The translations under genes were made by a program, and so were the position numbers. This document shows, in pieces, positions 7,398-35,552 of a DNA stretch of 37,561 nucleotides (positions are counted from its first letter, which is position 1; each line of letters starts with the position of its first letter). The DNA comes from Planctomycetaceae bacterium (GTDB lineage: Bacteria > Planctomycetota > Planctomycetia > Pirellulales > PALSA-1355): NCBI GenBank assembly GCA_003153375.1, contig PLYM01000125.1, positions 78,788 through 116,348 on the forward strand. Reading direction: 5' to 3'. Below the pieces are notes generated by a model. That model did no database searches, was not told where the DNA came from, and saw only the letters and a list, made by a program, of their open reading frames with translations.

Positions 7398-7453
7398 AAA
7401 AAGGGGACGGGAGTCAAATTGCGATCGGCAAACTTGACTCCCGTCCCCTTTTT
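7398..7453. repeat. Long palindromic repeat, copy B; perfect 20-bp arms
   Basis: AAAAAGGGGACGGGAGTCAA (7398-7417) is exactly complementary to 7434-7453, with a 16-base centre that itself can form TTGC/GCAA pairs. It begins 36 bases upstream of the hicB start, and its right edge touches the stop codon of the cytochrome gene (7453-7455), which puts it at the right place to terminate that gene's transcript. The terminal A5/T5 tracts favour termination in both directions. It is in direct orientation with copy A. Confidence 0.8.
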
Positions 7454-14070: not shown

Positions 14071-14201
14071 GGTCGCTTTCTCTAGGTCTGATCGAGGAGC
14101 GAGGCCGCTCCGCTGGTTCCGAGTTTCCTGGTGCGAAGGATGGCCTGAAGTCAAAGCTCGCCGGGTTGATCGTTTTCATCTGCCGGTTCATCAGCCGCGA
14201 C

Positions 14202-17200: not shown

Positions 17201-20200
17201 GCGACAGCGACGTGGCGCCATTGAGTTGCACGCTCGCGCCCGAAACGATGGGCGTTACTCCTGGCGCCGCACCGAGCAACTGCAACGAGTGTCCGGCGCT
17301 TTGGGCGATCGACGTCACGCCATTCAACGTGATGTTCGTGCCAGCGACTACCACCGGCGTGACACCGGACAGGACCACGTGGTCCGTCAGTCCGTGAGCC
17401 GCGCTTTGTGACAGCGAAGTCGCGCCGGCGAAGATCACGTTGACTCCGTCCAACACGGGAGTCACCCCGGCGGGTGGACTGGCCAAAACCGCGGTTTGGA
17501 TGGCCTGGGCGACTTGCGCTGCGCTCATGCTGCTGAAGACGTCGATCTCGACGTTTCCTGGAGCGGCGTTGAAACTCTTACTGAGCTGATAGGTCTTGCC
17601 ATTGACGGTAAACGTCTCGCCATCGATCACGTTGGTCCCCGTTGGCGCGGTGACGCTCATCGTATTGGTGGTCATCACGTGACCGGCACTTTGAGTCAGC
17701 GACGTGGCGCCGACGAACTGCACGTTCGTTCCGTTGAGTACGGCCTGCACGCCCGACACCGTCGAGCCAACCGCCGCGACAATCTTGGCGGCAATCTGAT
17801 TGTTCGAGTCGCTGGTGAAAAAATTGATGGGGTGAGCGCCGGCCCCGACGTGGGTCATCGTGAAGGTGGTGCCGTTGACCGTGAAGGTTTCCCCTTCCTG
17901 AATCAAAATGCCGCCGCCGCCTGGCACGGTCAGACTCAACGACTGGTTCTGGATCGCCGTGTTGATCAAGGACGTGACCTGGGCGGCCGTCGCCGTGCCG
18001 TTGTAGGTGATGCCGACGTTGCCGGGCACGATGGGGGTTGGAGTCGGGGCCGACTTCTGCATCTGGAACGTGATGCCGTTGGCCGTGAACGTTTCGGCAT
18101 CCTGAAGGGTGCTTCCGCCGCCCGTCGGGATCTGCAACTGGTAGGGCAACTGCGTGAGCTGCGCCGCGATGGCCTTGGCGACGTCGTCGGCCGTCATCGA
18201 ATTCGTAATGTTGATCAAACCGGCCCCCGTGGCGCCGGTTTTCGTGAAGGTGAAGGTCGTGCCGTTGACCGTGAAGGTTTCGCCCTCATTAATCAGTTGG
18301 GCGCCGCCAGCAGGCACGGTGAGAACCAACCCCGAGCGGAACGTGAACTGATAGTTCAGCGTTTGGATGACCGGCGAGCCGTCGGGATTGAAACTCGTGG
18401 TCATCGAATTATTCACGCTAAACGACTGCCCGTCCAACGAGGGTGTCGCGGCCGGGGCGCCCAGGTATACGCCACTTTGCAGCGTGGCGCCGATGCCCAG
18501 CGCGCCTGCCGTGCTAAAGTCGAAACGCAGCATGACGTTCGACTTGCCGGCAAAATCGCCCAAATCGACGCGGGCTTGCCGCCAGCCAACCGCCGTCGTG
18601 TTCGGGTCCGTGTTCACGTTGACCGGAGGGTTGCCGGTCGGATCGAAGGCCTCTTGCACCTGCTGGTTCGAGGCGTCGCCCTCGTAAGCGCCGCCCTGGG
18701 CGGAAATGTACGATGGCAACTCGGAGTTCGTCGTACGCGGGGACGACAGGGTTGAGTTGTTGGTCACCAACTCCTCCCAATGCACGCCGCCATCGCTTGA
18801 GCCATAGACGCGAAAGCTGTCTTGCATGGAGGCGCCGTTGGCATCCTGCGTGTCGAGCGCGTAATTGAAATACAACGTCGGCTCGTCGGCCGCGGCGTAG
18901 CCTTGCAGGCTGAACGGCTGGGCTTGCAAACTGCCATAGGCTCCGCCCGGCAAATTGTAGCTGTTGAACAGCGCCATATTGCTGCTCGCCGCGATGTTCG
19001 AAGCGTTGGGCAGATAGCCGATCGATCCCGGCTGGGGCGTCAGCGCCGTCGTCGGATTCTCGAGACCGAAATAGAAGCTGTTGCCGCCACTCGTCGACGC
19101 GCCAGGACCGGTTGTTGCCGAGTTGAAGTCGAAGCTGGGCGTCGAACCGTGGCCCGCGTTGGCGGCAAACTGAGCCGCCGCCGGAGTGCCCGGGGCACCG
19201 CCGGGGCCAGGATCGCCGCCGCGATTTGCCGTGACGTGCCAGAGGTTGTAGTCGAGCGTCGAGAAGGTCACGCCTTGCAAGTCGAACAGTCCGGTGTCGA
19301 CGTGCGTGGCCCCATTCAGGAAGACGTGCCCGAGCTGGCCGCCGGCGGCCGTCGTCAGTCCCGTGGTGGGATCGGCCGGAACGTCGAAGGACCAGAGATT
19401 GCCTTGTTCGTCGGTGGCAAACAGCGAGTACTTGTATGCGCCGTTCTCGACGTCTGGCGGACCGGCCGTCAGTCCCGTGAAGTTCACCAGGCCATTGAGC
19501 CCGTTGGGCTTGCTGGCAATTCCGCCCGACAGGTCGGAAACGACGTTCAGCAGCGTGAGCGTAGCTCCGTTGTTGCTCGCGTTGGGAAGCGAATTGAAGT
19601 TCTTCACTTCGTACAGGGCGCCCGTGTCGCTGACGGCAAACAATCGATCGGGCAGCGTGGTGCCGTTTGGTAAGGGTGGCGTTGGCACGAAGGCAACGCC
19701 CGTGATGTCGCCCGTCTGGCCAAAGAAAAAGCCGTTGGTACCGAAAAGGTTCTCGCCATAGACGGTTTGCCCGGCGGTGTCCGTAAAGCCGAAGATGTTG
19801 TTTTCCGGAGCATCGGTGGTCAGCGGGTCGTAAACCGTGGTCGAACCGGAACCGAACGATCCTGCCAACTGGGTTGGCGTCAGCGTGGGGTTCAAGTTCA
19901 CATCGCTGCCCATCACGTTCGTCAGTTTGATGAACACGGAATTGAGATTGTCGGTCTGCTCGCCTTGCACGGCGCCTTGGCTGACGGTGGCGCTCACGCG
20001 GTAGTTGGAACTCGCGCCATCGGGCACGGGAGTGGTCGCGGGCTGCGCGGGATTGTTGGTGGGATTGTTGATCTTGGCGGCGATGGCGGCTGCCAAGGTG
20101 GCGGCCGAATCGCTGGCCTTGAAGTGAATGGCGATCGGCGCCGGTGAAATCGCCTGCACAAATCCGCTGGGAGTAGGCGGCGAGCCTGGCAGCGGAGCGG

Positions 20201-23200
20201 TCAATGCGGAGAAGTTCGCCGTGGCTCCTCCGTGGATGACGATGGCGCCGCCGGTGAATGAGGCCACTCCGGACAGGCCCACGGTGCTATTGATCGCGAT
20301 GACCATCTCGAGTGCCACGGTCGTGCTCGAATCGGTCGCCGTATAGGCCACCTTTGTGTTCGTGCCCGTGGCGCTGCCCGAGGAACGAAACTCGAACGTG
20401 GTCGTGACACCCGTCGGGGAGGTGATGAAGAACGTTTCGCCGTCGGAAAGGCTCGATCCAGGACCGGTTTGCAAATACGTCGTTTTGCCCGTGGTGCCCC
20501 GGGCGCCCGTAATCGTGAATCCGTCGTTCGTAAGCGTGGTGGTGTTGGAAAGGTCGCCGGTTCCCAAGCCTCCGGTCGAGGTGTTGATCGTGATCCGATG
20601 GACGCTGAAGTCGGCAATGCCGGCGAACGCGGGCCCGGCGCCGTTGATCGCGGTCGTGATCTCGGCGCCCAACGTGGCGGCGCTATCGGTCGCTAGGAAA
20701 GGGATCGTGATGTTCGAGCCGCCGGCCAGTGTACCGTCGTTCTTGAACACGAACACGGTATTGCCGATCTTGAACGAGTCGTTGTTGTGCAATCCCGCCG
20801 CCGGCGTCGCGGTGTTGGGGAAGTTCAGGATCGGACCGCTATCGAACTCGAACGTGACGCCGGTCGGGAGGACGGCTGCAACGTTGCCGCTAGAGTCGAG
20901 CTTGAGCGTGCCATCGGCATTCAGGGGCACCGGATTGTTGCCAATGCGGAATTGCTGCCCATCCTGAATGTCGTTCGTCGGGTCGGTGGCGCTGGTGGCG
21001 GGCACCGAGATGATCGACACGCCCGTGGTCAATTGACCCTGCGGTATGGCCGACGTGCCAGACGCATCGCCCAGCGGAGAGTTGTCGGGAACTGGGTTGA
21101 ACGTTTGGAATTTTCCGTTGCTCGCTTTGGCCTCGGTGTTGAGCGGCGCGCCGGTGTTGGCGTCCAGCGCGAACAACAGATTCTGCGACCACTGGATCGA
21201 GGGGTCACTGTTGCGATTGCCAACGGCAAACAGCGCTCGGCCGGGCACTTCGAATTGGCCATACGCACTGTTGAAGTTCGAGGGAAAGTTGACCGTGTTG
21301 GAGAATACGTTCGGATCGTAACCGAATGTCATACCGTTATAAAACACGCCGGCATCGGTGCCAGTCGGGGATTTGAAGTTGTAGGATGGAGGGATCAGAT
21401 TGATCGGCGTGGTGGGATCGAGGACCTGCGTCGCAATCGGACTGCTCTGGTCGCCCAAGCCGTTCTTGTCGGTCGTGGCGATCGCGCCGTCCGTCGTGTC
21501 TAACTGCCGATAAGTGCCGTTGGTTTGGGATGTGTCGTTGGTACCCAAGCCCTGGGGGAAGGTGAACAAACGACCGTCGCTGCGCATCGCGATGTCGAAA
21601 TACTCGTCGACGAAGTCACCGGGACTCGAGTGCGGCAAACCGTTCTGGCTCTGGCCGCTGGGCGAGCCATAAGGCGTGGGCTGCACCGTGTTCGACGGGT
21701 TCGTGATCCAGGTTTGCGGCTGACCCGTAAATGGATTGACCGTATACAGCTGGCTTGGGCCGTTCACATACATCACGACGTCGCCCAGCGAGAAGGGCGT
21801 GGCGCTGAGGTTGAGTTGTTGCGGGGTGCTGCCAGGGAAAGCCTGTTGCGCCGGCGGCGTGGCCGTGGCCTGGGCGTTCGACGCACCAATCGTGTCATTG
21901 ATGATGCTGGCCATCGAGTCGACCGGCTGCAATCGCACCAGGGGATTGGTCGCCGTCATATTGAACGTGGCGTCGAGAACCGTGGGCAGATTGTAGCTCG
22001 ACGAGACCGCCACGTAGTACGTTCGCAATCCCGACGTGGCGCCTTGTGGGTCTGGTCCGCCGGCGGGCAATTGCACGCTGCCGATCGTGGGATCCAGGGT
22101 GCCGAACTGGCCGTGCGAAGCATTCGCGGTGTCAGAGCCCTGACCGGGCGTGGGCTGCGCATCGACGACGTCCGAACCGCGTCCGATCAAGACCAGATTG
22201 CCAGCCTGGTCGAAAATCGACATGGTCGTGTCGGGCCGCGTCAGGCCGTCGGCGTAGTCGATGGCAAACATGGCCGCGAACGTCTTGAGGCCGTCGCTGC
22301 TCTTGGCGATGGCTTGGACCAGGTCGTAATTCAAGTTGAATTTGAACCAGTCGACCTGCAATGGATTGCTAAGCTGGCCGGCGACGCTGATCGAACTGTT
22401 GGCTGAATCGAGCAGGTTGCCGAGGTTTTGCGCCGTGTCGAACGTGCCGTTAGGCTCCGCTTCGATCAGCGAGTGCGTCGTGCTCTGCGTGAGGTTCGTG
22501 GCGCCGGCGAACGTCACGGTGGAACCGGCTGCGGTCGCGGTGACTCCCGTAACGGTCTTGCCCACCACCGCCGCGATTGCGGCGGCCACGTCGGTGCTGC
22601 TCATCGTGTCGGTGATCTGAATGAAGCCGGTCCCCGACTGGGTCGTATCCTTGGTGAGCGTGAAGGTGGTTCCCGTCGCGACGGCGTTGACGATCGTGCT
22701 CGAGTTGAGCGTGAACGTCTCGCCGCTGATCACGGCCGTGCCGCCGCCAGGCGCGGCGGTGAGCGAAGGGTTCGAGACGATGGTCTGCGACGTGGTTCCC
22801 TCCAACGGCGAATGCTCGGGCTTGCCGACGACCTGCACGCCGTTCACCGCATAGCGAATGTCGGCGTTTCGCACCACGTTGCCCGGATACTGATACTCTT
22901 CCTGCAAGCGAACCTGCAGCTGATATTCGCCCTTGGTGAGTCCTGCCCCGAGGTCGGACATGTTCGCGCTTTTGTTGCTGGCCCGCACGCGAATGTAATA
23001 CGTGTTGATCGTACCGGTCGTGCCAGGCAACTCGACCCGCATCGCGGGATCGAGCGGATTGGTGCTGAAAAAGTGTGGCGCGCTGAAGGTGCCGACACTG
23101 CCGGGTAAGCCAGTTTGGAACGGCTTGGCGATGCCCACCAGCAAGGTGGGATTGATTTGCTCGGCGATGGCATTGTCGGAGCGGGCCAGCACGCCACCGT

Positions 23201-26200
23201 TGGCGTCGACCAACTCGACGACGGCATCGAGCGCCGAGGCCGTCTGATTCATGTCGATCCAGACGGGCGTTCCGGCCGTGCCTTGGAAGCTGTAAACGTC
23301 AACGTCGCCCCGACCGGGGCTGGAGAACGTCTGGCTGATCGAACCATGAATCGTAAAACCAAGCCGTGCGTTGTCGTCGCCGCTCAGAGAGTCCTTGGCC
23401 AGAATGCCCAGGTACTGCGCGGTCGACGGCGTGCTGTTGGTATCGGCGCCGGAAACGAAGCCTTGTTCGGCTTCATTCACGACGTCGACGTTCGTGTCGT
23501 TGCTGTACGTGTCGAGCGTGACTCCGACCCAGTTGCCGGGGGTCGGAGCGGGGGTGGTGGCGCCCTTGCGGTTAGCCGTATCGTTCTGCGGCTGGCCCGA
23601 CGGCGTGAAACCTGCGCCGGCCGTGGTGTCGTAGATCGAAGTCAGCACCACCGGGTGACTGGGCGTGCCAATGATCTGCACCGCGCCGCCGTAACGATTG
23701 GTGATGTCCAACGGCTCGCCCGAGGCCGTAAAGCCGGCCGTGGTACCCAACAGCTTGACCACCAGGCTCTCGGTCGGCGAACTTTGCAGCCGGATCGTGC
23801 CGGTGAGCGAGAACTGATTCGACGTGGTAATGAGATCTTCGAGCACGTGGACGATGTCGGTATCGTCCCACACGACGTCGGTCGTGATGATGCCGCCGCG
23901 GACCAGCATGCCGTTGATCGGGTTGTTGTCCAGCTTATTGCCGCGCACCAAGGGACCGTCGTTGGTCAGCGAAACGACTTGCAGATTGATCGCGCCGATG
24001 GAATCGCCCCAATCGGTGACCAATTGCGAGTTCAGCGAATTGACGTTGATGCTGATGGCGGCCGTGTTGGCATTGGCGCCTGCGAGGTCGTTGTTCTGGA
24101 TCGTGTTATTGACGATCACCGGCTGTGCGCCGCGGACGAAAATCACGGCCGAAGTGGCCGAACTGCGTCCGGATCGATCGGTGCTGTCGCCGCCGGCGGC
24201 GTTGTTCTCCAGGGTGCTGTTGGCGATGCGGACCTTGGCTTGGTGGATCTCCACGGCGTCGAAGGTGCCGAAGCCGCCCTCGACCGTGGTGGTGCCGCCG
24301 CCAAACGTGATCAGCGCATGATCGACGCTGCCGGTCGAGAGGGGGCCGAAGAACAATCCACCCCAGTTGCCGGCCGTAGGCGTAGTCGTGGAGCCGTCGT
24401 TCGTCGTATCGAACGAGCCGGCCGCGCCATACCGATCATCGAAGACCGAGGTGAAGACGATCGGATTGCTGGCCGTGCCCTCGGCGATCAATTGCGAGCC
24501 AATTTCGGTTTCGATGCGCGCGCCACCCAGCTTGATCACGACCCCCGGATCGATCGACAACCGTGCGTTGGGCCGCGCGGTCAGCACGGCGTTGGGGTCC
24601 GACGGATCGGTAACTTGCCCTGTCAAGCTGCTGACGTAGTCGAAGCCGCCCGGCTGCCCTTGAATTTCCAGATTCTCCTCGACGACGTATACCATGTCGG
24701 TCGTCGAGAACCGCGCGGAGACGGTCAGCGGATCGAGCACCGAACCGGTGCTCAGGTCGGTGCGGATGCGCACGAACAACCCGTTGATGCTGTTTTGCTG
24801 GATCGAGTTGACGGCCACGATTCCGTGGCTGGCGCTTTGCGAGAACGTGTTCAGGCCGAACAGCAGCACGCTCGATCCGGCAGACGTCGAGAGCACCCCG
24901 GCGATCGGATTGGCGACCAGCGAGGCCTGGGCGGCCGCCGCCACTTGCGCGGCAGTCATGGAGTTGGTGATGTTGATCACCCGAGTTCCGGCGGTGCCGG
25001 TCTTGGTGAACTTGAATGTCACGCCGTTGACCACGAAGGTCTCACCCTCGATAACGGCCGATCCACCGGCGGACGGCACCGTGAAGGTCGTAGAATTGAC
25101 GCCCAGCGTGTTGCCGCGAATCTGCGGCCCGACGCGCGAATAGTCGGCTTGGAACGCACTGCCCGGGACTTCGCTTTGGAATTCGGATTCCTGGAAGCTG
25201 TTGGGATCGGCCGATACCGCGGCGTCGGCACTGTTGGTGATCGTGTTGTAGGTGATCGTGGGCCGCGAGGAAATCAAGTGAATGGGATCGTAGACACTCA
25301 ACAGTGAGTTGACATTGACCTGGCCGCCGCCAAAGCTGATCGAGGCGTGGTTGACATAGTCAAGGAAGATGCCCTGCGACTCGTTGTCGGCGTCGCCATG
25401 AAAGACGATGCCGCCCCAGTCGCCCGCCTTCAGCGGGCCCTTGGCCGTGCCCGGATCGGTACCAAAGGCACTGTTGTAGTACGACGTCAGAAAGACCGAG
25501 CCAGTCGGCGGGGTAGGGGTAGACGAATTCGCCGGCAGAACCGGCGTGCCCAACAACTGCAGAGCGCCACCGGCGGCGGTGCCGGGCGTGACCGACCCAA
25601 CGTCGATATTCGCCCCGTGCAGCTTGATGATTGCTCCGGCGTCGACCATCACCGTGACGCCTGCCGGGATCTGAAAGGTGGAACCGTCGGAAAGCGGATT
25701 GCCCAAGCTGTCGAAGCCGATGTTATAGCTTTGCCAATTGGCGATCGATGTGGCCGGGTTATTCGTGGGGCCGTAATTGCCTTCAATGCGCACGATGCTG
25801 CCGGGAGCCGCGTGGGCCAGGGCAAAGGCGATGGTCTTGAAGGGCGCATTAATCGAGCCAGCCCCGTTGCCCGTGGGCGCCAGATCGACGCCCGTCACCT
25901 TGTCGACGAAAAACGTTTGGCTGGCCGAGGCCACGTTGAACCAGAAGTTATAGTTTCCGCCGGGCGAGCCGTCCGAGTCGCCGTCGAGCAGGGTCCCGGT
26001 CGTGTCCTTGATGCCGTTGGTCGTGGCGGGCGTGAACGTCATCCGCAACTGGTAGCTGCCTTGCGTCGTGCCGCCAAATCCGGTGTTCGGAATGGCTGGG
26101 TTATAGTTCGTGTTGCCCGTGCTGGTCACCGCGACATAGTAGGTGCCGGTGCCGAGTTGCATCGAGACCAGCGAATCGGTGCCGTAATAGTCGTCGTTAC

Positions 26201-27923
26201 GCGCGATGATGTTGCCGTTACTGTCGAACAGCGTGATCACGGTGTTCAGCTGGCTGGGGGCTTGGCCGGCCAGCGTGCCGAGCCGCTGCGCGATCGTCTC
26301 CAGATTCAACAAGCCCGACTGATTGAGCGCGAACTGGTAGATGTTGATGTCGTTGCCGACCGGCGGGTGCAAATATTGCCCCAGCAGGATGTCGGCGTCG
26401 CCGGGAAACACGGGCTCGGCTGACGAGACGTTGGGACCCGTCTCGGAGCTGCCTTGAATTGTCAGCGGGGGCAGTTCGTAGGTATGGCCCAAACCCAGCA
26501 GATGCCCGATTTCGTGCATCGCGGTGGTAAAAAACGCCCCGCCGGCGGCACTGTCGCCCCAGTCGACGGCCGAGTTCATGACGGCCTCGTTGCCACCGGC
26601 GATGCCGCCGATGCCCAGTGGATTGACGTTCGGATCGACCACCAGCGGATTGCCGCGCGCAATCGTGAAACCGGAAGTAGCCGTTTCGACGAATTCGACA
26701 CCCAAATAATTCGCGTAGTATTGCAGCACTTCGCGCACGCGCTGCTTCTGGACGTCCGTGATGAAGTTCGTTTGCGCCAGGCCGTTGACCGAGCCGATGT
26801 TCGATTGGAAATTGTAGAAGTAGACCGGGATCTGGCCGCTGAGATCGGGGCTGCCGTCGAGATGGTCTTCGACGTTGATGGCGCGCGTGCCCGGCTCATT
26901 GTCGCCGCCCGGATAGAGCACGGTCACCGGACTGCCGCCGATGTTCGCGCCCGGGCCGGAGAGCGTGAGGCTTTGCGTTCCGGAGGTGGCGGTGAACAAG
27001 GTTTGCAGATTGTCCGCCGTGCCAAAGCTCGACCCCGCGGCCCCGCTGGCCACGTTGGTTGTCGTGGTGGGCAAGGAAATGGGGTCGGCATTGCCGATCC
27101 GCAGCCGGTAGGTACCGGGCACGGCCAAAGCGCTCGAGGCGAACATCAAGACCGCTTTGCCCGTGGTCTGGTTGTAATTGACCGAGACGGGGTTGATGAT
27201 GGCGCCGTCGTCGAGCGTGGAGGCGGTGTCGTTGGAGCGGATCAGTTCGTAATAGGTCTTGGTTTGCGCGCTCGTCATGTCCAACGGATCGTTGGCGTTG
27301 AAATAGACGTCGATTTCACTCTGCGCGCTGGCCGATTGCGTGATCCGGCCCGAGGCGTCGCGCGAAACAGGCTGCGGCACGACCGCCACCACCTGGGCGC
27401 CCAGGTCGAGCGAAAATTGCTGGGTGACCGACTGCCCGGCATTGAATACCGTTCCATTCGTGCCTTTGAGCGTGCCAGCGATCGAAAATTGATAGAGATC
27501 GTTCGGTAGATCGTTGGCAAATCGCACGACGACTTCGTTATTGCTGGCGCCGATGCCCACGAAGCCGGCTGCGACGCTGACATCGTCGCTGGTCCCCAGA
27601 ACATGATCAGCGCCGGCCCGAGTAACTTGAATGGCCTGCACGCCGCCCGCGGTGAGCGTGGTCGGATCGATGTTGCTATCGAAGCGGAAAATCAACTGCG
27701 TGGGCGCCACGTGCAAGACCTGGTTCGCCGCCAGGCCCGAGGTTTCCGAGGAGTCGGGAAACACCGCCACGAGTTTCGGCCCGATCGCCAGCATCACCCG
27801 TTCTTCGAACGGTTCCAGGCGCATCACGCGCGGGCTCAGCCCTGCCGCCTTGCGCGACCGTCGTTTGCGCTCGAGGGAAAAGGGGTTGCCGAGTCGATCG
27901 GAAAGGTTTCGCCATTTCGTCAT
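14202..27923 (-). CDS. Giant exported multidomain protein (4573 residues): metzincin-like protease site, beta-helix, PPC and C-terminal dockerin
   Basis: Start at ATG 27923, favoured over 28025 because the export motif RLEPFEERVMLA then falls at residues 35-46 and a promoter lies just upstream. Order: two SbsA/Ig-like segments (about residues 47-285); a zinc-protease region with HEIGHLLGLGH (470-480; DNA about 26484-26516); a PPC-like domain (DNA about 26030-26350); parallel beta-helix stretches with solitary outlier motifs such as AGNWGG and VNHASISFGGG (about 23700-25900); two further PPC-like parts (about 23140-23390 and 22140-22460); a propeller-like region (about 19250-21770); a block of ETFTVNG modules (17150-18330); more beta-helix (about 15500-16050); a Big-type Ig domain (14880-15250); and two dockerin repeats, DVNNDGFISGIDALLII and DVNGDGFLSPLDLLTI (14640-14826). 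The last 150 residues are Ala/Ser/Thr-rich. Probably surface-bound or secreted. Whether the protease site is active is unclear. Confidence 0.88.
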   Translation of the reverse strand: MTKWRNLSDRLGNPFSLERKRRSRKAAGLSPRVMRLEPFEERVMLAIGPKLVAVFPDSSETSGLAANQVLHVAPTQLIFRFDSNIDPTTLTAGGVQAIQVTRAGADHVLGTSDDVSVAAGFVGIGASNNEVVVRFANDLPNDLYQFSIAGTLKGTNGTVFNAGQSVTQQFSLDLGAQVVAVVPQPVSRDASGRITQSASAQSEIDVYFNANDPLDMTSAQTKTYYELIRSNDTASTLDDGAIINPVSVNYNQTTGKAVLMFASSALAVPGTYRLRIGNADPISLPTTTTNVASGAAGSSFGTADNLQTLFTATSGTQSLTLSGPGANIGGSPVTVLYPGGDNEPGTRAINVEDHLDGSPDLSGQIPVYFYNFQSNIGSVNGLAQTNFITDVQKQRVREVLQYYANYLGVEFVETATSGFTIARGNPLVVDPNVNPLGIGGIAGGNEAVMNSAVDWGDSAAGGAFFTTAMHEIGHLLGLGHTYELPPLTIQGSSETGPNVSSAEPVFPGDADILLGQYLHPPVGNDINIYQFALNQSGLLNLETIAQRLGTLAGQAPSQLNTVITLFDSNGNIIARNDDYYGTDSLVSMQLGTGTYYVAVTSTGNTNYNPAIPNTGFGGTTQGSYQLRMTFTPATTNGIKDTTGTLLDGDSDGSPGGNYNFWFNVASASQTFFVDKVTGVDLAPTGNGAGSINAPFKTIAFALAHAAPGSIVRIEGNYGPTNNPATSIANWQSYNIGFDSLGNPLSDGSTFQIPAGVTVMVDAGAIIKLHGANIDVGSVTPGTAAGGALQLLGTPVLPANSSTPTPPTGSVFLTSYYNSAFGTDPGTAKGPLKAGDWGGIVFHGDADNESQGIFLDYVNHASISFGGGQVNVNSLLSVYDPIHLISSRPTITYNTITNSADAAVSADPNSFQESEFQSEVPGSAFQADYSRVGPQIRGNTLGVNSTTFTVPSAGGSAVIEGETFVVNGVTFKFTKTGTAGTRVINITNSMTAAQVAAAAQASLVANPIAGVLSTSAGSSVLLFGLNTFSQSASHGIVAVNSIQQNSINGLFVRIRTDLSTGSVLDPLTVSARFSTTDMVYVVEENLEIQGQPGGFDYVSSLTGQVTDPSDPNAVLTARPNARLSIDPGVVIKLGGARIETEIGSQLIAEGTASNPIVFTSVFDDRYGAAGSFDTTNDGSTTTPTAGNWGGLFFGPLSTGSVDHALITFGGGTTTVEGGFGTFDAVEIHQAKVRIANSTLENNAAGGDSTDRSGRSSATSAVIFVRGAQPVIVNNTIQNNDLAGANANTAAISINVNSLNSQLVTDWGDSIGAINLQVVSLTNDGPLVRGNKLDNNPINGMLVRGGIITTDVVWDDTDIVHVLEDLITTSNQFSLTGTIRLQSSPTESLVVKLLGTTAGFTASGEPLDITNRYGGAVQIIGTPSHPVVLTSIYDTTAGAGFTPSGQPQNDTANRKGATTPAPTPGNWVGVTLDTYSNDTNVDVVNEAEQGFVSGADTNSTPSTAQYLGILAKDSLSGDDNARLGFTIHGSISQTFSSPGRGDVDVYSFQGTAGTPVWIDMNQTASALDAVVELVDANGGVLARSDNAIAEQINPTLLVGIAKPFQTGLPGSVGTFSAPHFFSTNPLDPAMRVELPGTTGTINTYYIRVRASNKSANMSDLGAGLTKGEYQLQVRLQEEYQYPGNVVRNADIRYAVNGVQVVGKPEHSPLEGTTSQTIVSNPSLTAAPGGGTAVISGETFTLNSSTIVNAVATGTTFTLTKDTTQSGTGFIQITDTMSSTDVAAAIAAVVGKTVTGVTATAAGSTVTFAGATNLTQSTTHSLIEAEPNGTFDTAQNLGNLLDSANSSISVAGQLSNPLQVDWFKFNLNYDLVQAIAKSSDGLKTFAAMFAIDYADGLTRPDTTMSIFDQAGNLVLIGRGSDVVDAQPTPGQGSDTANASHGQFGTLDPTIGSVQLPAGGPDPQGATSGLRTYYVAVSSSYNLPTVLDATFNMTATNPLVRLQPVDSMASIINDTIGASNAQATATPPAQQAFPGSTPQQLNLSATPFSLGDVVMYVNGPSQLYTVNPFTGQPQTWITNPSNTVQPTPYGSPSGQSQNGLPHSSPGDFVDEYFDIAMRSDGRLFTFPQGLGTNDTSQTNGTYRQLDTTDGAIATTDKNGLGDQSSPIATQVLDPTTPINLIPPSYNFKSPTGTDAGVFYNGMTFGYDPNVFSNTVNFPSNFNSAYGQFEVPGRALFAVGNRNSDPSIQWSQNLLFALDANTGAPLNTEAKASNGKFQTFNPVPDNSPLGDASGTSAIPQGQLTTGVSIISVPATSATDPTNDIQDGQQFRIGNNPVPLNADGTLKLDSSGNVAAVLPTGVTFEFDSGPILNFPNTATPAAGLHNNDSFKIGNTVFVFKNDGTLAGGSNITIPFLATDSAATLGAEITTAINGAGPAFAGIADFSVHRITINTSTGGLGTGDLSNTTTLTNDGFTITGARGTTGKTTYLQTGPGSSLSDGETFFITSPTGVTTTFEFRSSGSATGTNTKVAYTATDSSTTVALEMVIAINSTVGLSGVASFTGGAIVIHGGATANFSALTAPLPGSPPTPSGFVQAISPAPIAIHFKASDSAATLAAAIAAKINNPTNNPAQPATTPVPDGASSNYRVSATVSQGAVQGEQTDNLNSVFIKLTNVMGSDVNLNPTLTPTQLAGSFGSGSTTVYDPLTTDAPENNIFGFTDTAGQTVYGENLFGTNGFFFGQTGDITGVAFVPTPPLPNGTTLPDRLFAVSDTGALYEVKNFNSLPNASNNGATLTLLNVVSDLSGGIASKPNGLNGLVNFTGLTAGPPDVENGAYKYSLFATDEQGNLWSFDVPADPTTGLTTAAGGQLGHVFLNGATHVDTGLFDLQGVTFSTLDYNLWHVTANRGGDPGPGGAPGTPAAAQFAANAGHGSTPSFDFNSATTGPGASTSGGNSFYFGLENPTTALTPQPGSIGYLPNASNIAASSNMALFNSYNLPGGAYGSLQAQPFSLQGYAAADEPTLYFNYALDTQDANGASMQDSFRVYGSSDGGVHWEELVTNNSTLSSPRTTNSELPSYISAQGGAYEGDASNQQVQEAFDPTGNPPVNVNTDPNTTAVGWRQARVDLGDFAGKSNVMLRFDFSTAGALGIGATLQSGVYLGAPAATPSLDGQSFSVNNSMTTSFNPDGSPVIQTLNYQFTFRSGLVLTVPAGGAQLINEGETFTVNGTTFTFTKTGATGAGLINITNSMTADDVAKAIAAQLTQLPYQLQIPTGGGSTLQDAETFTANGITFQMQKSAPTPTPIVPGNVGITYNGTATAAQVTSLINTAIQNQSLSLTVPGGGGILIQEGETFTVNGTTFTMTHVGAGAHPINFFTSDSNNQIAAKIVAAVGSTVSGVQAVLNGTNVQFVGATSLTQSAGHVMTTNTMSVTAPTGTNVIDGETFTVNGKTYQLSKSFNAAPGNVEIDVFSSMSAAQVAQAIQTAVLASPPAGVTPVLDGVNVIFAGATSLSQSAAHGLTDHVVLSGVTPVVVAGTNITLNGVTSIAQSAGHSLQLLGAAPGVTPIVSGASVQLNGATSLSQSAVHALIKTGSALQAPPAATSQNADIPYNINMSAGDMSVLVAKAMDAKFAAVVGSSANQLPADNLDNPNIFTSSKIVYMASPSGTSQVPSGVLQLIGHSVVSAGPLDTSSTLTGDSFGNFYTPIVNNVWQGPTIGEMRGQNNTHEGVYIDDIQVGFAGRGEMVTGTYNPTADLIAQQSNPNAPIPITGLTTFTPVPINPDPTVAKHISVGVFQLDIRPATQYGASLNSGFPYIGLFQTYNINDRFTQAFTLTSISAEKIVDLSTFTIDTQHVTVTFQFVTNATEANTSSASGNIPVLIHTGDSDAAVALAIQTAINTLPVAKNFKVKAGVQPTSKRIDLFGDVDQVIPGQLGLIVYGAGALGDTPIGGLTGALGGVGDTVPTPAPQGYTIIQNNRISNSLKSGLSSTPQLVTDANGNPIGVGVPGHTGAVSNLPTLNTSQLVPGISFSNNLIVNSGQNGILFSGSPTTDVTHAVPFGRIFNNTIVGAPIGINVINNASPTVLNNIIAQFLPISLLATAIGINVDSTSSTTVVGESVYENNATNLVGVAESNAINLSKDKNLPLFVNAAAGNFYLAEGTPAIDSSLNTLPDRPQMVAVDTPLGIPASAIQAPNFDLLGQLRVDDPNVSSPPGLGSNVFKDRGAIERADFAGPTALLVNPQDNDAAGVDRNSSVNQVLIVGKQLTNFSIQLSDTGVGVDDSTVDIGKFSITRNGVLLVGGTDYSLSYDPTNNIAQLIPPQGVWADGTYVITLNNTNSTNPIKDLAGNGLAPNDATGVTQFVIQQTAVAAASWQNPVNKFDVNNDGFISGIDALLIIDSLITQGPRPLPGTPTVPPDFYYDVNGDGFLSPLDLLTITQYLNTFGVTPAGHVAGAAATTSQATIATPQVVAATPQVATASNLATPATSPMASAVSGSGAAVALSLAASSSPATTPVVTVNAASVGTVSAASTSTSNPSSATAAIASTLSSDDWNDSQNDLESILTDLTASSEDPRLTNSIAT
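17150..18330 (-). repeat. Block of repeated 'ETFTVNG-TF' modules in the giant protein
   Basis: Four consecutive modules share the pattern D/E-G-E-T-F-T-V-N-G-x-T-F-x-(F/M)-x-K followed by I-x-(I/V)-x-x-S-M-(T/S)-A-x-x-V-A-x-A-I. DNA anchors are near 18261-18296, 18075-18107, 17871-17907 and 17600-17633. After them, NGATSLSQSAxH-type half repeats continue at least four times to about 17150. Related single copies occur at about 24800-25083 and 22455-22763, and more distant ones at 20100-20900. They probably form small beta-rich units. The anchors stay similar at the DNA level, suggesting duplication within the gene. Confidence 0.75.
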
Positions 27924-28604: not shown

Positions 28605-29492
28605 CTAGACTTGCCAGCCCGTCAGGAAACGCGCCGCGGCCCAGCGCGCAAACCATTGGCCCAGGTCGCGTTCGAGCGACGCCAAGCGAGCTCCTGGAAG
28701 TTCCGCGGCGGTCCGCAGCGCATCATTCAGCGTATCGCCGGCCGCCAAACGCTCGAGTAGCGAAAACTCGCTGGGCTCGAGCGCATGGCGTTCGATCTGA
28801 TACTCGCGCCGATTGATCGCCAGGCAGCTCGCACTGGGTTGCGGCGCGACGGGCTGCTCCCCGTTTTTAAGCGCGGTCCAATAGACGTGCACCGGGTGAT
28901 CAAAGCGGTGCAATCGCAGGCAGGGGGCCGCGACAAATCGCAACTGGCCCAGTCGATCGCCGGGAACCTTCGCCAGTGCGGCGAGGTCCAACCTCACCAG
29001 GCCTTCGCTGCCAGGTCCGTCGAACACGTCGCGTTGCGATCGCTCGAAAGCGGCCAGCTCGATCACGAAATCCGCCCAGCGGGCTGGCGTTCCAGCAGGC
29101 GCGGCTCGCTCGTGCAACCGCGACTCGGCGAGATAACGGGGAAAGCTCGCGCCCAGCTTGCCCAGCGTATAACTGTGCGAGGGGTAATGCTGCAAATAGC
29201 CGAATGCCACCGCTTCGAACAGCTCCCCCCCCAGCGCGGCACGCGTGGCGGTGAATTCCTCGCGCAAGCATTCCAACAGCCGCTCGTGATAGGCGTCGAC
29301 GTAAATCTCGAGCCGCTGGGTGCTATCCAATCGGGCCGAGGGCGCGATCACGCTGGCCAGGTCCCTAGCCGGGATGTCCAGATGGGCCCGCGTGGCTGGC
29401 GCGTCGAGACCTTCCTCCACGCCGCCGGGATGCGTGATCACGCTCTGCATCCAGCGCTGGATCTGTTCGAGACTCGCCGGCCGGCCGCTCAT
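28605..29492 (-). CDS. DUF2063 / BufC-like partner of the DUF692 enzyme
   Basis: 295 residues from the ATG at 29492. The N-terminal domain, often labelled putative DNA-binding (DUF2063), runs from [12 protein letters not shown] through [29 protein letters not shown] to about residue 110. A second beta-rich domain follows ([10 protein letters not shown] to the end). In methanobactin and bufferin pathways this family (MbnC/BufC/HvfC) is the partner of the iron enzyme and helps present the precursor peptide; DNA binding is not established. The ATG overlaps the last bases of the upstream DUF692 gene (29489-29492, ATGA), so the two are almost surely translationally coupled. The in-frame ORF runs further upstream, but only as an antisense-frame shadow of DUF692. 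Confidence 0.88.
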
Positions 29493-30418
29493 GTGATTTC
29501 GCCCATGATATAGGCGATCGGATTCGAGACGCCGTGCGCCCCCGGTGCCGGATCGGCCGACGTTGTAGCCGCGGGGCGGGCCGTGGTCGGCAGATCGTTC
29601 ATATACTGGCGTGCCTTCAGCACTTCGCCGTGTACCACCGGAAACTCGGGAATGCGAGCGTCCCATTCGAGCAACGTCGACATGCCGCCGGTCAACCGGT
29701 GGGCCAACCGATACAGCTCCCACACCGGATCGATCACGTGATCGTCGTGCGTGTCGATCAGGTGCGTGCGGCAGTTGGTGTGGCCCGCCAGGTGGCACTG
29801 CACGATCCGCTCGTGCGGCACGTTTTCGATGTACTCTCGCGGATCGAAATCGTGATTGACGCTCGACACATACACGTTGTTGACGTCGAGCAGCAGGCCG
29901 CAATCGGCCTCGGTGGCCATCCGCGTCAGGAATTCCCATTCGCTCATCGTGGACTGGGCAAACGTGACATACGTGCTGGGGTTTTCCAACACCAGTGGCC
30001 GCTCCAGAAAGTTCTGCACCATGCGAATGCGGGCCACAACGTGCGCCAGCGTCTCCTCGTTCAGCGGGATCGGCAGCAAATCGTGTGCATTGATGCCCAA
30101 GACTCCGGTCCAGCAGAGGTGGTCTGAAATCCAGCGCGGGCCGATGGCTTGCTCGAGTCGTTTCAACCGGCCCAGGTACTCGAAGTTCAAGGGGTCGGTG
30201 CTGCCGATCGACAGCGAGACGCCGTGCATGACCGTCGGATACCGCTCGGCAATTTGGTCGAGCACCCAGCGCGGCCGGCCCGCCGAGTCCATGAAGTTTT
30301 CGGAGATCACCTCAAACCAATCGACCTGCGGCCAATGCTCGAGAATGTAGGGGAAATGAACCGTTCGCAGGCCGATGCCCAGTCCGAGATTCGGATGTCC
30401 CAGGCGCAGGGCTGCCAT
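29489..30418 (-). CDS. DUF692 multinuclear non-heme iron enzyme (MNIO), BufB/MbnB-like
   Basis: 309 residues from the ATG at 30418; a GTG at 30481 would add 21 residues but lies upstream of the predicted transcription start. TIM-barrel enzyme of the MbnB/BufB/HvfB family, which use two or three iron ions and oxygen to convert cysteines of peptide precursors into oxazolone- or thiooxazole-type groups that bind copper. Visible conserved ligand-bearing stretches: GLGIGLR at the start, [60 protein letters not shown] and LLEWD. The DUF2063 gene follows with a 4-base overlap. The usual short, cysteine-bearing precursor gene (DUF2282 or DUF333 type) is not present beside it. Confidence 0.92.
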
Positions 30419-30869
30419 GGCAGGTGTCTCGGAAGGTGAGGAATCGGAGGGGCTTACCGCGATTGTAGCGGTAGCCAGCACCGCGGACTATCGGCCAAGC
30501 CGTCGCTCCACGCTGACGGTGGCGTACTGGCCCAGGGTGGAATTCGTTGGTCCGGCGCCGAACAGTCGACCGATGTTGGAAGAATGGTGACCATGATGAT
30601 TTGTTTTGTGGTCATTTGAAAGTGGGTTGCCCAGTCGTTAACCTTTACCGCATTGGGGCAAATTTCCAAATGTCCGAGTTGGCTCCCTCCGGACGGCGAA
30701 GAGTCGGGGGGCGGCGTCCGAAACGTTGGAAAACTCCGCGCCGTCCGTCGACGAATAGGACAGTCAGCGCGGTGCCGCCGGTTGTCCCGGGGGACTCGGC
30801 CCCACGCCCTCGTGGAACGTGTGTTTGAATGTCGCCTGAGCAGAATTACCCCGGACCCACTAAACCGCC
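30419..30869. other. Divergent intergenic region between DUF692 and E2-like genes
   Basis: About 450 bases. A minus-strand TACAAT at 30467-30462 (five of six matches to a -10) is the best candidate for starting the DUF692 transcript near 30455, but its -35 (TAGTCC) is weak. Reading both strands for a small cysteine-rich RiPP precursor found none with a plausible start, ribosome site and signal peptide. No other structure was recognised. Confidence 0.35.
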
Positions 30870-31685
30870 ATGGCACTCATTCCGATCCCGGGCCTCGATA
30901 AGAGCATCAAAGGCAAGTTCATTGCGCTGTCGCCCCAGCGGAAATTTGTCTGCGACTTGATGCGCTACTCGAGGAAGGTGCCGAGCGTCCCGTCACAGCG
31001 GCGGATGCACCTGGCCGACGTCGTTTCGGCCCGCCGCAGCCAGCCCAGGCACGTCAGCTGGTGCGCGATTTTTCTCAAGGCCTACGCGATCGTTTCGGCC
31101 GCCAATCCGCAGTTACGGCGTTGCTACTTGCCCTTTTTGTGGCCGCACATCTACGAACATCCGATCAACGTGGCAAGCTTCAGCCTCGAGCGAACGTACC
31201 GGGGCGAGGAAGGGGTGTTTTTCGCCCACGTGCCGCGGCCCGAGTTGCTATCGCTTGAGGAACTCGACGCCTTGGTGCGGCACCACAAAACGGCCGACGT
31301 CGATAGCATCCCCCACTTTCGGCAGGCGATGCTGTTGAGCCGGATGCCCCTGCCGCTGCGGCGGCTGCTTTGGTGGATGGCCTTATATACCGACGGGGCC
31401 GCCCGAGCGCATTTTTTTGGCACCTACGCGGTCAGTGTCGTGGCCGCCTTTGGCGCGGGCGCCCTGCACATCCTCTCGCCCCTGACCACGACGCTCCACT
31501 ACGGCACGTTCGATGACCAGGGCGCGATCGACGTGCGGCTGACCTACGACCATCGCGTGATGGACGGTGCCACGATCGCCCGCGCGCTCACCGCACTTGA
31601 GGAAGTGCTGCAGAACGAGATTTGCGCGGAGCTGCGGGCTCTGGCCTCGCCCGCGCCTGCCCGACAGGCGGCTCACGCCTCGTAG
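30870..31685 (+). CDS. Stand-alone acyltransferase domain of the 2-oxoacid dehydrogenase E2 type
   Basis: 271 residues. The C-terminal half matches the catalytic domain of dihydrolipoamide acyltransferases (chloramphenicol acetyltransferase fold): GTYAVSVVAAFGAGALHILSP, then LTYDHRVMDGATIARAL, with the HxxxDG catalytic motif at H228 and D232. The lipoyl and E1/E3-binding domains that normally precede it are missing, and no E1 or E3 gene is adjacent. A hydrophobic stretch around residues 155-172 (MPLPLRRLLWWMALY) is unusual for this fold. It may be an acyltransferase with a free acyl donor rather than part of a dehydrogenase complex. Start at ATG 30870; no clear Shine-Dalgarno. Confidence 0.8.
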   Translation: MALIPIPGLDKSIKGKFIALSPQRKFVCDLMRYSRKVPSVPSQRRMHLADVVSARRSQPRHVSWCAIFLKAYAIVSAANPQLRRCYLPFLWPHIYEHPINVASFSLERTYRGEEGVFFAHVPRPELLSLEELDALVRHHKTADVDSIPHFRQAMLLSRMPLPLRRLLWWMALYTDGAARAHFFGTYAVSVVAAFGAGALHILSPLTTTLHYGTFDDQGAIDVRLTYDHRVMDGATIARALTALEEVLQNEICAELRALASPAPARQAAHAS

Positions 31686-31927: not shown

Positions 31928-33334
31928 ATGGATTCTTGCCGCGGACATGGTTTGTCGTGGGTCTCCGCCGTGGCATTGGCCGGCCTGCTGGTGTTCTCGA
32001 GCGCCCTGGCCCGCGCCGCCGAAAAGGAAGGCGAGAAGAAGCTTCCGGAAGACGACTACGAGCTCTATCAGATCTTTGCCGACACGCTCGACCAGGTCGA
32101 GCGTAACTACGTCAAGGACGTCAGCCGCCGCGAATTGATGGAGGCGGCCATTCACGGCGTGCTGAGCAAGCTCGATCCCTACTCGAACTACATCAGTCCC
32201 GACGACATCAATCGCTTCAAAACCAGCGTCGAGAGCCAATTCGGCGGCATCGGCATTCGCATCGACCACCAGGGCGATCAACTGCGGATCATTAGCCCCC
32301 TGGTCGGCACCCCGGCCTATCGTGCCGGGCTGGAGTCGGGCGACACCATCCTGGAAATCAACGGCAAGAGCACCGAGGGCATTGGTCCCGACGAAGCGAT
32401 CAAGCGACTCAAGGGGGACGCCGGCACGCAGGTGACGTTGACCATTCAACACGCCGACGCGCGTCCCAAGGAAACCGTCACGATCACGCGCGAGTGGGTA
32501 CACGTCGAGACGATCCAGGGCGATCACCGCAAGCCGGACGACAGTTGGGACTTCTTTCTCGATCACGACAAGCACCTTGGCTACATCCGCCTGTCGGCCT
32601 TCAGCCGCGACACGGCCCTGGAATTGAAGAAAGCCCTGGTCGACTTGCAGGGGCAGGGCCTCAAGGGGCTGGTCGTCGACCTGCGATTCAATCCCGGCGG
32701 GCTGCTGACCTCGGCCATCGAAGTCAGCGACATGTTCGTCGCCAGCGGCCGCATCGTGAGCACCAAGGGGCGCAACACGCCCGAGCGCGTCTGGGAAGCC
32801 GAGAAGGAGGGGACCTTCGAGGGCTTTCCGATGGCGGTCCTGGTCAACCACTATAGCGCCAGCGCCAGCGAGATACTTTCGGCCTGCTTGCAAGACAATC
32901 ATCGCGCGATCGTCGTTGGCGAAAGAACGTGGGGCAAAGGAAGCGTGCAGAACGTGATCGAGCTGGAAGGGGGCAAGAGCGCCCTGAAGCTGACCACGGC
33001 CAGCTACCACCGGCCCAACGGCAAGAACATTCACCGCTTTCCCGACGCCAAGGAGAGCGACGAATGGGGTGTGATGCCCGACGAGGGCTATTCGGTGAAG
33101 CTCACCCCAACCGAAACCGAGCGGTTGATTCGCGAACGTCGCGATCGCGACATCCTGGTCAGCAAGCACGGTAAGGCGCGCGTCGACGGCTACCCCGCGA
33201 AGCCGCCCGAACCGGGTGACGCCAAGCCGCCAGAAGCCGCGGCCAAGGATTCGCCCGCCAAGGAGCCGTTCGTCGATCCGCAATTGCAAAAGGCGGTCGA
33301 CTATCTGACGCAGCAACTCGCCCGAGCCCAATAG
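31928..33334 (+). CDS. Secreted S41-family C-terminal processing protease (CtpA/Prc type)
   Basis: 468 residues. An N-terminal signal sequence (SWVSAVALAGLLVFSSALARA) ends near residue 30. The prologue helices include YELYQIFADTLDQVERNYV and HGVLSKLDPYSNYI. A PDZ domain covers about 98-180 (GGIGIRI, GLESGDTILEINGKS). The S41 core has the nucleophile Ser312 in HYSASASEIL, with Lys337 in TWGKGSVQ and Gln341, spaced exactly as in the Ser-Lys-Gln set of CtpB. A proline/lysine-rich tail and short helix end the protein. It should cleave unfolded or tail-specific substrates in the periplasm. GGAGGAGG lies six bases before the ATG and fixes the start. It converges on the TPR gene. The substrate is unknown. 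Confidence 0.95.
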   Translation: MDSCRGHGLSWVSAVALAGLLVFSSALARAAEKEGEKKLPEDDYELYQIFADTLDQVERNYVKDVSRRELMEAAIHGVLSKLDPYSNYISPDDINRFKTSVESQFGGIGIRIDHQGDQLRIISPLVGTPAYRAGLESGDTILEINGKSTEGIGPDEAIKRLKGDAGTQVTLTIQHADARPKETVTITREWVHVETIQGDHRKPDDSWDFFLDHDKHLGYIRLSAFSRDTALELKKALVDLQGQGLKGLVVDLRFNPGGLLTSAIEVSDMFVASGRIVSTKGRNTPERVWEAEKEGTFEGFPMAVLVNHYSASASEILSACLQDNHRAIVVGERTWGKGSVQNVIELEGGKSALKLTTASYHRPNGKNIHRFPDAKESDEWGVMPDEGYSVKLTPTETERLIRERRDRDILVSKHGKARVDGYPAKPPEPGDAKPPEAAAKDSPAKEPFVDPQLQKAVDYLTQQLARAQ

Positions 33335-34532: not shown

Positions 34533-35552
34533 ATGAAAACCCTACTGATCCTGGAAAGCACCTGCGACGAGACGGCCGCGGCGCTGGTGACCGAACAACT
34601 GGAAGTGCGGGCGGCGGTCGTGGCCTCGCAGGAGAAACTCCACGAGCGCTATGGCGGCGTGGTGCCCGAGATTGCCGCGCGCGCCCACGTCGAGCGAATT
34701 CTGCCGGTGATCGACGAGACCTTGCGCCGGGCAAACATGAAGCTGGGCGACGTCGCGGGGATTGCCGTGGCCAACACGCCCGGTCTGGCGGGCTCGCTGC
34801 TGGTGGGGCTAGCAGCGGCCAAGGCCCTGTGCCTGGCGTTGGGGGTGCCGCTGGTGGCCGTGAACCATCTGCACGCCCACATCTATGCCTGCCGCCTGGC
34901 CGCGGGAAAGGAAGTCTTCCCCTGCCTGGGTCTGATCGTCAGCGGCGGTCACACCAGTCTCTATCGTTGTGCCTCGGCGCTGGAGTTCGAGTTGCTGGGG
35001 GGCACGATTGACGATGCGGCCGGCGAGGCCTTCGACAAGATCGGGAGCTTGCTGGGTCTACCTTTTCCGGGCGGGCCAGCCATTCAGCGCGCGGCCGAAA
35101 GAGGAAACGCAGCGGCCTATGCACTGCCGCGACCCATGATCGACAGCGAGGGGTTCGAATTCAGCTTCAGCGGCCTGAAGACGGCCGTGCGCTATAAGAT
35201 TGCCCCGCCGGGCACGACCGTCGACGCCCCGCTGGATGCGCAAGTCGTGGCCGATTTGGCGGCCAGCTTTCAAGAGGCGGTCGTCGACTGCCTGGTGGCC
35301 AAATCGCTGCTGGCCGTGCGGCGCACCGGCCTGAAAGTGCTCTGTGTTGGCGGCGGCGTGGCCGCCAACGCGCGTCTGCGTCAGCGGCTGGGCGAAGAGT
35401 CGACCAAGCGTGGCATCGAGTTGCACATTCCGCCGCTGCAACTCTGCACCGATAACGCCGTGATGGGCGCGATTGCCTGGGAACGGCTGGCCGCCGGGCT
35501 GACCGAGACCCTGGACCTGGACGTTTATCCGGGGCTGGTGCGCGGAAAATGA
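34533..35552 (+). CDS. tsaD: tRNA N6-adenosine threonylcarbamoyltransferase TsaD
   Basis: TsaD transfers the threonylcarbamoyl group from threonylcarbamoyl-AMP to A37 of ANN-decoding tRNAs (t6A), working with TsaB, TsaE and TsaC; cytoplasmic and normally essential. 339 residues, the normal length. Signatures: LESTCDETAAAL (usually ESSCDET) at about 8-18; the metal-binding NHLHAH at 111-116 (H112 and H116); GLIVSGGHTSL at 133-143; FSFSGLKTAVR at 210-220; and the third metal ligand D307 in LCTDNAVMGA. The ATG is fixed by the N-terminal MKTLLILE; no Shine-Dalgarno is obvious, although TAAAAT (34515-34520) just upstream may be part of a promoter. The partner genes are not in this window. It converges on the gene ending at 35618. 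Confidence 0.97.
   Translation: MKTLLILESTCDETAAALVTEQLEVRAAVVASQEKLHERYGGVVPEIAARAHVERILPVIDETLRRANMKLGDVAGIAVANTPGLAGSLLVGLAAAKALCLALGVPLVAVNHLHAHIYACRLAAGKEVFPCLGLIVSGGHTSLYRCASALEFELLGGTIDDAAGEAFDKIGSLLGLPFPGGPAIQRAAERGNAAAYALPRPMIDSEGFEFSFSGLKTAVRYKIAPPGTTVDAPLDAQVVADLAASFQEAVVDCLVAKSLLAVRRTGLKVLCVGGGVAANARLRQRLGEESTKRGIELHIPPLQLCTDNAVMGAIAWERLAAGLTETLDLDVYPGLVRGK

Follow-up and report, generated by a model that had tools for sequence, protein, structure and literature searches.

The window analyzed here, a 37,561-nucleotide stretch of DNA from a Planctomycetaceae genome, carries an ordinary MNIO–PME1 maturase pair whose precursor gene is unlinked, lying on contig C81 of the same genome. 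Our reading, to which we assign a probability of roughly four in five, is that the pair modifies this distant precursor by oxidizing its cysteines, that the product is exported by the twin-arginine (Tat) route and binds a soft metal, and that an inversion split the ancestral operon. The novel elements are the precursor branch, its probable export by Tat, an alanine signature in the enzyme, and the apparent operon-splitting inversion.

The MNIO and DUF2063 genes of the window

The pair and its largest neighbor are arranged as follows:

29489..30418, minus strand: MNIO (DUF692, BufB-type) maturase, 309 aa (P0001), with ATG at 30418 and stop at 29489
28605..29492, minus strand: DUF2063 and RRE partner (PME-type 1, BufC/HvfC-like), 295 aa (P0002), with ATG at 29492 and stop ending at 28605
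14202..27923, minus strand: giant surface-type protein lacking Cys, about 4,570 aa if read from its likely ATG, downstream of the DUF2063 gene

The initial annotation described a coupled DUF692–DUF2063 pair with a four-base overlap and intact signature motifs, and profile searches bear this out. P0001 is, judged by its sequence, a BufB-type member of the MNIO superfamily: it matches PF05114 (DUF692, now MbnB_TglH_ChrH) in Pfam at E = 1e-106, passes the NCBIfam model NF050167 (MNIO_BufB) with 352.1 bits against a cut-off of 310, and aligns with PDB 3bww at E = 4e-46. Its metal-ligand motifs are complete (H65, H100, E145, D178, N181, H209, D222, H224, E251), and the ligand residues are kept in every aligned relative that covers those positions. 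In the alignment with 3bww, N181, D222 and H224 are the equivalents of HvfB N175, D242 and H244, residues indispensable to HvfBC (PMC13419390). The iron ligands, whose possible loss had been raised at the outset as grounds for doubt, are thus present. P0002 matches PF09836 (DUF2063) over the cut-off (E = 6.7e-16), and the two genes overlap in the four bases ATGA at 29489–29492. The AlphaFold2 model of P0002 (mean pLDDT 88.5) has as its top matches 3dee (NGO1945) and TglI of 8hi7 and 8hci, all at E ≤ 1.1e-5, followed at weak E-values by leader-binding RRE proteins such as TbiB1; this series of matches identifies P0002 as an MNIO partner of PME-type 1, a term of PMC12452194. Orthologues of P0001 with 63–79% identity occur in 20 related genomes, and in 19 of these a DUF2063 partner adjoins or lies near the MNIO gene (in the twentieth, the contig stretch ended or gave no match), so chance is not an issue for the pair. 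A natural MNIO–DUF2063 fusion, with both parts in one open frame that is preceded by a precursor gene, is found at L108:5593-7566 (JAHWKJ010000153.1), with a layout like that of the engineered HvfBC fusion.

No precursor gene accompanies the pair, as had been reported from the initial reading. Searching the translated window with the precursor described below returned only chance matches, with neither a homologue nor a remnant, and within about 2 kb of the pair neither strand showed a small ORF combining three or more cysteines with a hydrophobic N-terminus. A promoter scan upstream of the MNIO gene gave no signal above chance. It is hardly credible that the substrate of the pair is instead the giant surface protein next door or the product of some other gene nearby. 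Members of the same family (L040, L043 and L059) do keep the giant gene downstream of the operon, but its product contains no cysteine at all and is thereby contradicted as a substrate of cysteine chemistry; moreover, the gene lies 580 bp away and, outside the family, is not found downstream of the operon. This Cys-free ORF was rejected as a candidate substrate, a role that is not likely, and is instead a conserved flank of the operon within the family. After it comes, at 9409–14154, the gene for another large protein devoid of cysteine, which carries Calx-beta and dockerin domains. Further along, at 7453–9279 on the minus strand, the encoded protein joins a beta-propeller to a part resembling di-haem cytochrome c peroxidases, and it weakly matches models of hydrazine synthase beta/gamma and of MbnH/MauG.

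The precursor family and its member on a separate contig

The precursor family was found by clustering all ORFs around the 21 orthologous MNIO loci. Of the 21, 17 have a gene for a protein of about 150 residues beside the MNIO gene and, with a single exception, immediately upstream of it. Members of this family have in common a twin-arginine N-terminus, followed by a variable linker, a cysteine domain built of CxxxxxC repeats (CRGLNxC, CAGQGxC, NxCKGQGGCG, NxCKGKGxC) and, at the C-terminus, an AWxxAR..FE segment. Nine cysteines are present in 76 of 79 relatives, and a twin-arginine pattern, written as xRRx[FL] or [NSDT]RRxF, occurs at the N-terminus of 83 of 85 precursors; of the two exceptions, one has RRxM and the other is a fragment. 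The twin arginine is followed in many precursors by a lipobox-like xGC and in others by an AxA site. The closest NCBIfam model is BufA2 (NF050166), to which 27 of 28 sampled precursors give weak profile matches. At three loci (L125, L140 and L152), a second precursor copy sits between the MNIO and DUF2063 genes.

The family profile has a single match in the own genome, a gene at C81:187-630 (E = 1.4e-60). Its product of about 147 aa carries a twin-arginine signal, and its nine cysteines are arranged in CxxxxxC pairs (MENSPLNRRDFQRLSAAAIGGLMAGATLSSSAYAADAPKKD...CRGINMC...CAGQGTC...NECRGQGGCG...CKAMGEC...). Against BufA2 NF050166 it scores 22.3 bits, which, with a cut-off of 60, leaves it outside BufA2; the best own-genome matches of the BufA2 model, all weak, fall on this same gene. 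The AlphaFold2 model of the precursor reaches a pLDDT of only 54, and no fold is therefore claimed. A profile search of the own genome likewise finds exactly one PF05114 gene: there is no second MNIO or BufB, and so no bufferin operon elsewhere with an enzyme of its own, the other finding that would have weighed against the initial annotation. Its suggestion that the precursor might be encoded elsewhere is supported, given the single homologue on C81, the single MNIO, and the gene order considered below, which points to an inversion. Two of its suggestions fell away: the proposed DUF2282 precursor, since a profile search of the genome finds none, and a substrate hitherto unlinked to MNIO chemistry, which is not needed now that the C81 precursor exists.

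While precursor, MNIO and DUF2063 genes are linked in most relatives, their separation is not peculiar to this genome. A pattern-based scan of contigs yielded 394 stretches encoding precursor relatives, of which the best 80 belong to Planctomycetota and Verrucomicrobiota; among these 80 loci, 56 include an MNIO and 50 a partner. Of 21 genomes without an MNIO near the precursor, 19 carry a BufB-type MNIO on another contig, and 18 of those 19 show no linked precursor–MNIO pair at all. Enzyme and precursor thus lie on separate contigs in at least 18 genomes besides the own. In one MNIO-less genome, a weak, stop-containing precursor match (G005:C6:21458-21613, E = 4e-6) is possibly a relic.

Gene order, co-occurrence and the probable split of the operon

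The right-hand side of the pair is occupied by the following features:

30419..30869, no strand: inferred inversion junction, a precursor-free spacer; relatives have the precursor at that place
30870..31685, plus strand: acyltransferase-like short protein at the junction, in which a 2-oxoacid dehydrogenase acyltransferase domain is represented by its end alone
31928..33334, plus strand: S41 C-terminal processing peptidase (TIGR00225, E = 4e-90), flanking the second breakpoint and outside the pathway
34533..35552, plus strand: TsaD, tRNA threonylcarbamoyltransferase (TIGR03723, E = 2.7e-116), a syntenic marker for the second breakpoint

In the window, the giant, DUF2063 and MNIO genes point leftward, and across the junction the acyltransferase-like, S41 and TsaD genes point rightward. 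On C81, the rightward precursor gene meets a leftward methyltransferase gene, tail to tail and 28 bp apart, beyond which lie rightward hydrolase and glcD genes. Relatives have a different order: a leftward hydrolase followed by rightward methyltransferase, S41 and TsaD genes, and a rightward precursor followed by a rightward MNIO. The homologue of the C81 methyltransferase adjoins the S41 homologue in G001, G002, G003 and G004 and lies near it in G039, with TsaD next; the hydrolase is on the other side of the methyltransferase in five relatives, together with glcDEF in G001, G004 and G039. If the ancestral order is cut between precursor and MNIO and between methyltransferase and S41, and the piece is inverted, the arrangements of C81 and the window both result, with every gene orientation right. 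A single inversion with these two breakpoints apparently separated the precursor from the MNIO, as judged from gene order in a draft assembly. The acyltransferase-like gene has no counterpart in the five relatives and would be an extra piece at the junction.

It is improbable that the separation is an artefact of assembly or binning, such that the precursor really lies beside the MNIO or that C81 comes from a contaminating relative. The own genome is a draft metagenome-assembled genome of 291 contigs with 4.18% estimated contamination, and C81 begins only 186 bp before the precursor, whose upstream side is unseen; both facts leave room for such an error. However, one inversion would account for the reciprocal junctions on both contigs, where an artefact requires two matching chimeras, and some 7 kb of contig continue beyond the MNIO junction. 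The composition of C81 fits the same lineage (its tetranucleotide usage correlates with that of the window at r = 0.93, against 0.76–0.91 for twelve loci from other genomes), as does gene similarity: the glcD-like gene of C81 is most similar to genes of the same genus (88%) and family (83–85%), and for own MNIO and own precursor alike, the intact relative listed as closest is L040, of the same family. The genome has just one MNIO and one precursor, and the unlinked arrangement recurs in other genomes.

A further possibility is that, after the split, the pair ceased to work on the C81 precursor, its genes surviving as relics or having been recruited to another substrate. The window MNIO lost the promoter region it formerly had in common with the precursor. 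In G001, of the same genus, the precursor at the corresponding locus L059 (G001:C103, 9184–10645) is intact, but the MNIO after it is cut down to about 107 aa and no DUF2063 gene is present, although this genome also has an intact operon (L044) on a different contig. We nonetheless consider this outcome unlikely, since signs of decay are missing from all three proteins: nearly invariant columns are broken at 2 positions in the MNIO and at 1 each in partner and precursor, no more than in the intact operons of linked relatives, and the own MNIO evolves no faster than its relatives. Many genomes retain single unlinked copies of both MNIO and precursor, and other MNIO-linked precursor types were not found here, with DUF2282 absent and BufA2 matching only the C81 gene.

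Patterns of co-occurrence likewise tie the enzyme to the precursor. At the order level, the precursor is present in 21 of 21 genomes with a BufB-type MNIO and in 1 of 37 without (Fisher p = 7e-15); in a phylum sample, the figures are 26 of 33 with BufB and 0 of 115 without (Fisher p = 7e-23), both p-values being inflated by shared ancestry. The distance matrices of MNIO and precursor correlate (r = 0.56, 0 of 5000 permutations), as vertical descent alone would also have them do. The association is strong, not absolute: precursor genes are present, with no MNIO detected, in G018 (C86, C79) and G074 (C95), and 7 of the 33 phylum genomes with BufB have no precursor.

Proposed chemistry and comparison with known systems

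Under the preferred reading, that of a working pair with a distant precursor, the MNIO and its DUF2063/RRE partner would act on one dedicated substrate, the C81 product. The RRE of the partner would bind the N-terminal leader (the signal region), and the diiron center of the MNIO would oxidize the cysteines. By analogy with captophorins, the modification is most likely to 5-thiooxazole and would serve copper handling. The near-invariant twin arginine suggests that the modified precursor leaves by Tat; in the periplasm, the product may then bind copper or another soft metal. In the ancestor, enzymes and precursor would have formed one operon, within which the inversion breakpoint fell between precursor and MNIO.

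One residue of the enzyme differs from that of described groups. In FonB, Phe250 tunes substrate choice, and Asp replaces this Phe in "Cys-Lys" enzymes (PMC13097082). The aligned residue is Ala254 in P0001, and across the family it is Ala in 72 of 74 sequences and Ser in two. The adjacent catalytic base, Asp249 in FonB, has its conserved counterpart in Asp253; at the site of FonB Arg16, the family has Thr, Ser, Ala or Asn (Thr19 in P0001). Export may be another distinguishing trait. Published surveys give MNIO precursors Sec signals and leave Tat unmentioned (PMC12452194), and a search of open-access text found no relevant paper linking MNIO, DUF692 or bufferins with the twin-arginine or Tat route.

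The nearest known systems are the BufA2 bufferins or "Cys-Lys" captophorins (BufA2-B2-C2; PMC12452194, PMC13097082), which likewise combine a BufB-family MNIO and a PME-type 1 partner with an exported Cys-rich precursor bearing C-K/R-G motifs. They differ in having a Sec rather than a twin-arginine N-terminus, 6 or 12 conserved cysteines rather than nine, and Asp rather than Ala at the substrate-tuning residue; the precursor here adds a C-terminal AW..AR..FE segment and scores below the BufA2 cut-off, and a DoxX neighbor was not noted. The oxazolin, gonophorin and fontiphorin systems (HvfABC, FonABC; EGKCG captophorins) share the MNIO fold, the ligand set, the DUF2063–RRE partner and a predicted metal-binding product, but EGKCG repeats are absent from the precursor here, and the MNIO differs from fontiphorin FonB at the Phe250 and Arg16 sites. 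Bufferin-1 (DUF2282) has the same precursor–MNIO–DUF2063 operon logic that is seen in relatives, whereas the own genome lacks its precursor type and sigma/anti-sigma genes do not flank the locus. Methanobactin MbnABC and TglHI belong to the same enzyme superfamily, and the P0002 model resembles TglI, but the precursor type differs and sequence similarity is low. It is possible, though we hold this tentatively and at somewhat less than even odds, that Planctomycetota and Verrucomicrobiota harbor a captophorin branch of their own, with a nine-Cys precursor, an EWDA-pocket MNIO, modification in the cytoplasm, Tat export of a folded and perhaps metal-loaded product, and genes that often lie apart.

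Surveys of MNIO enzymes seek precursors in the genes adjoining the enzyme; in the largest MNIO cluster, about 4,000 members have been left without any named precursor family (PMC12452194). In the present case, the unlinked precursor of an apparent orphan pair was located with a profile derived from relatives that have the genes linked, and the same split arrangement recurs in many PVC genomes. The inversion offers a clean case of a RiPP operon that was broken while its parts were retained. If Tat export proves true, the MNIO product could be exported after folding, which would bear on where the metal is loaded.
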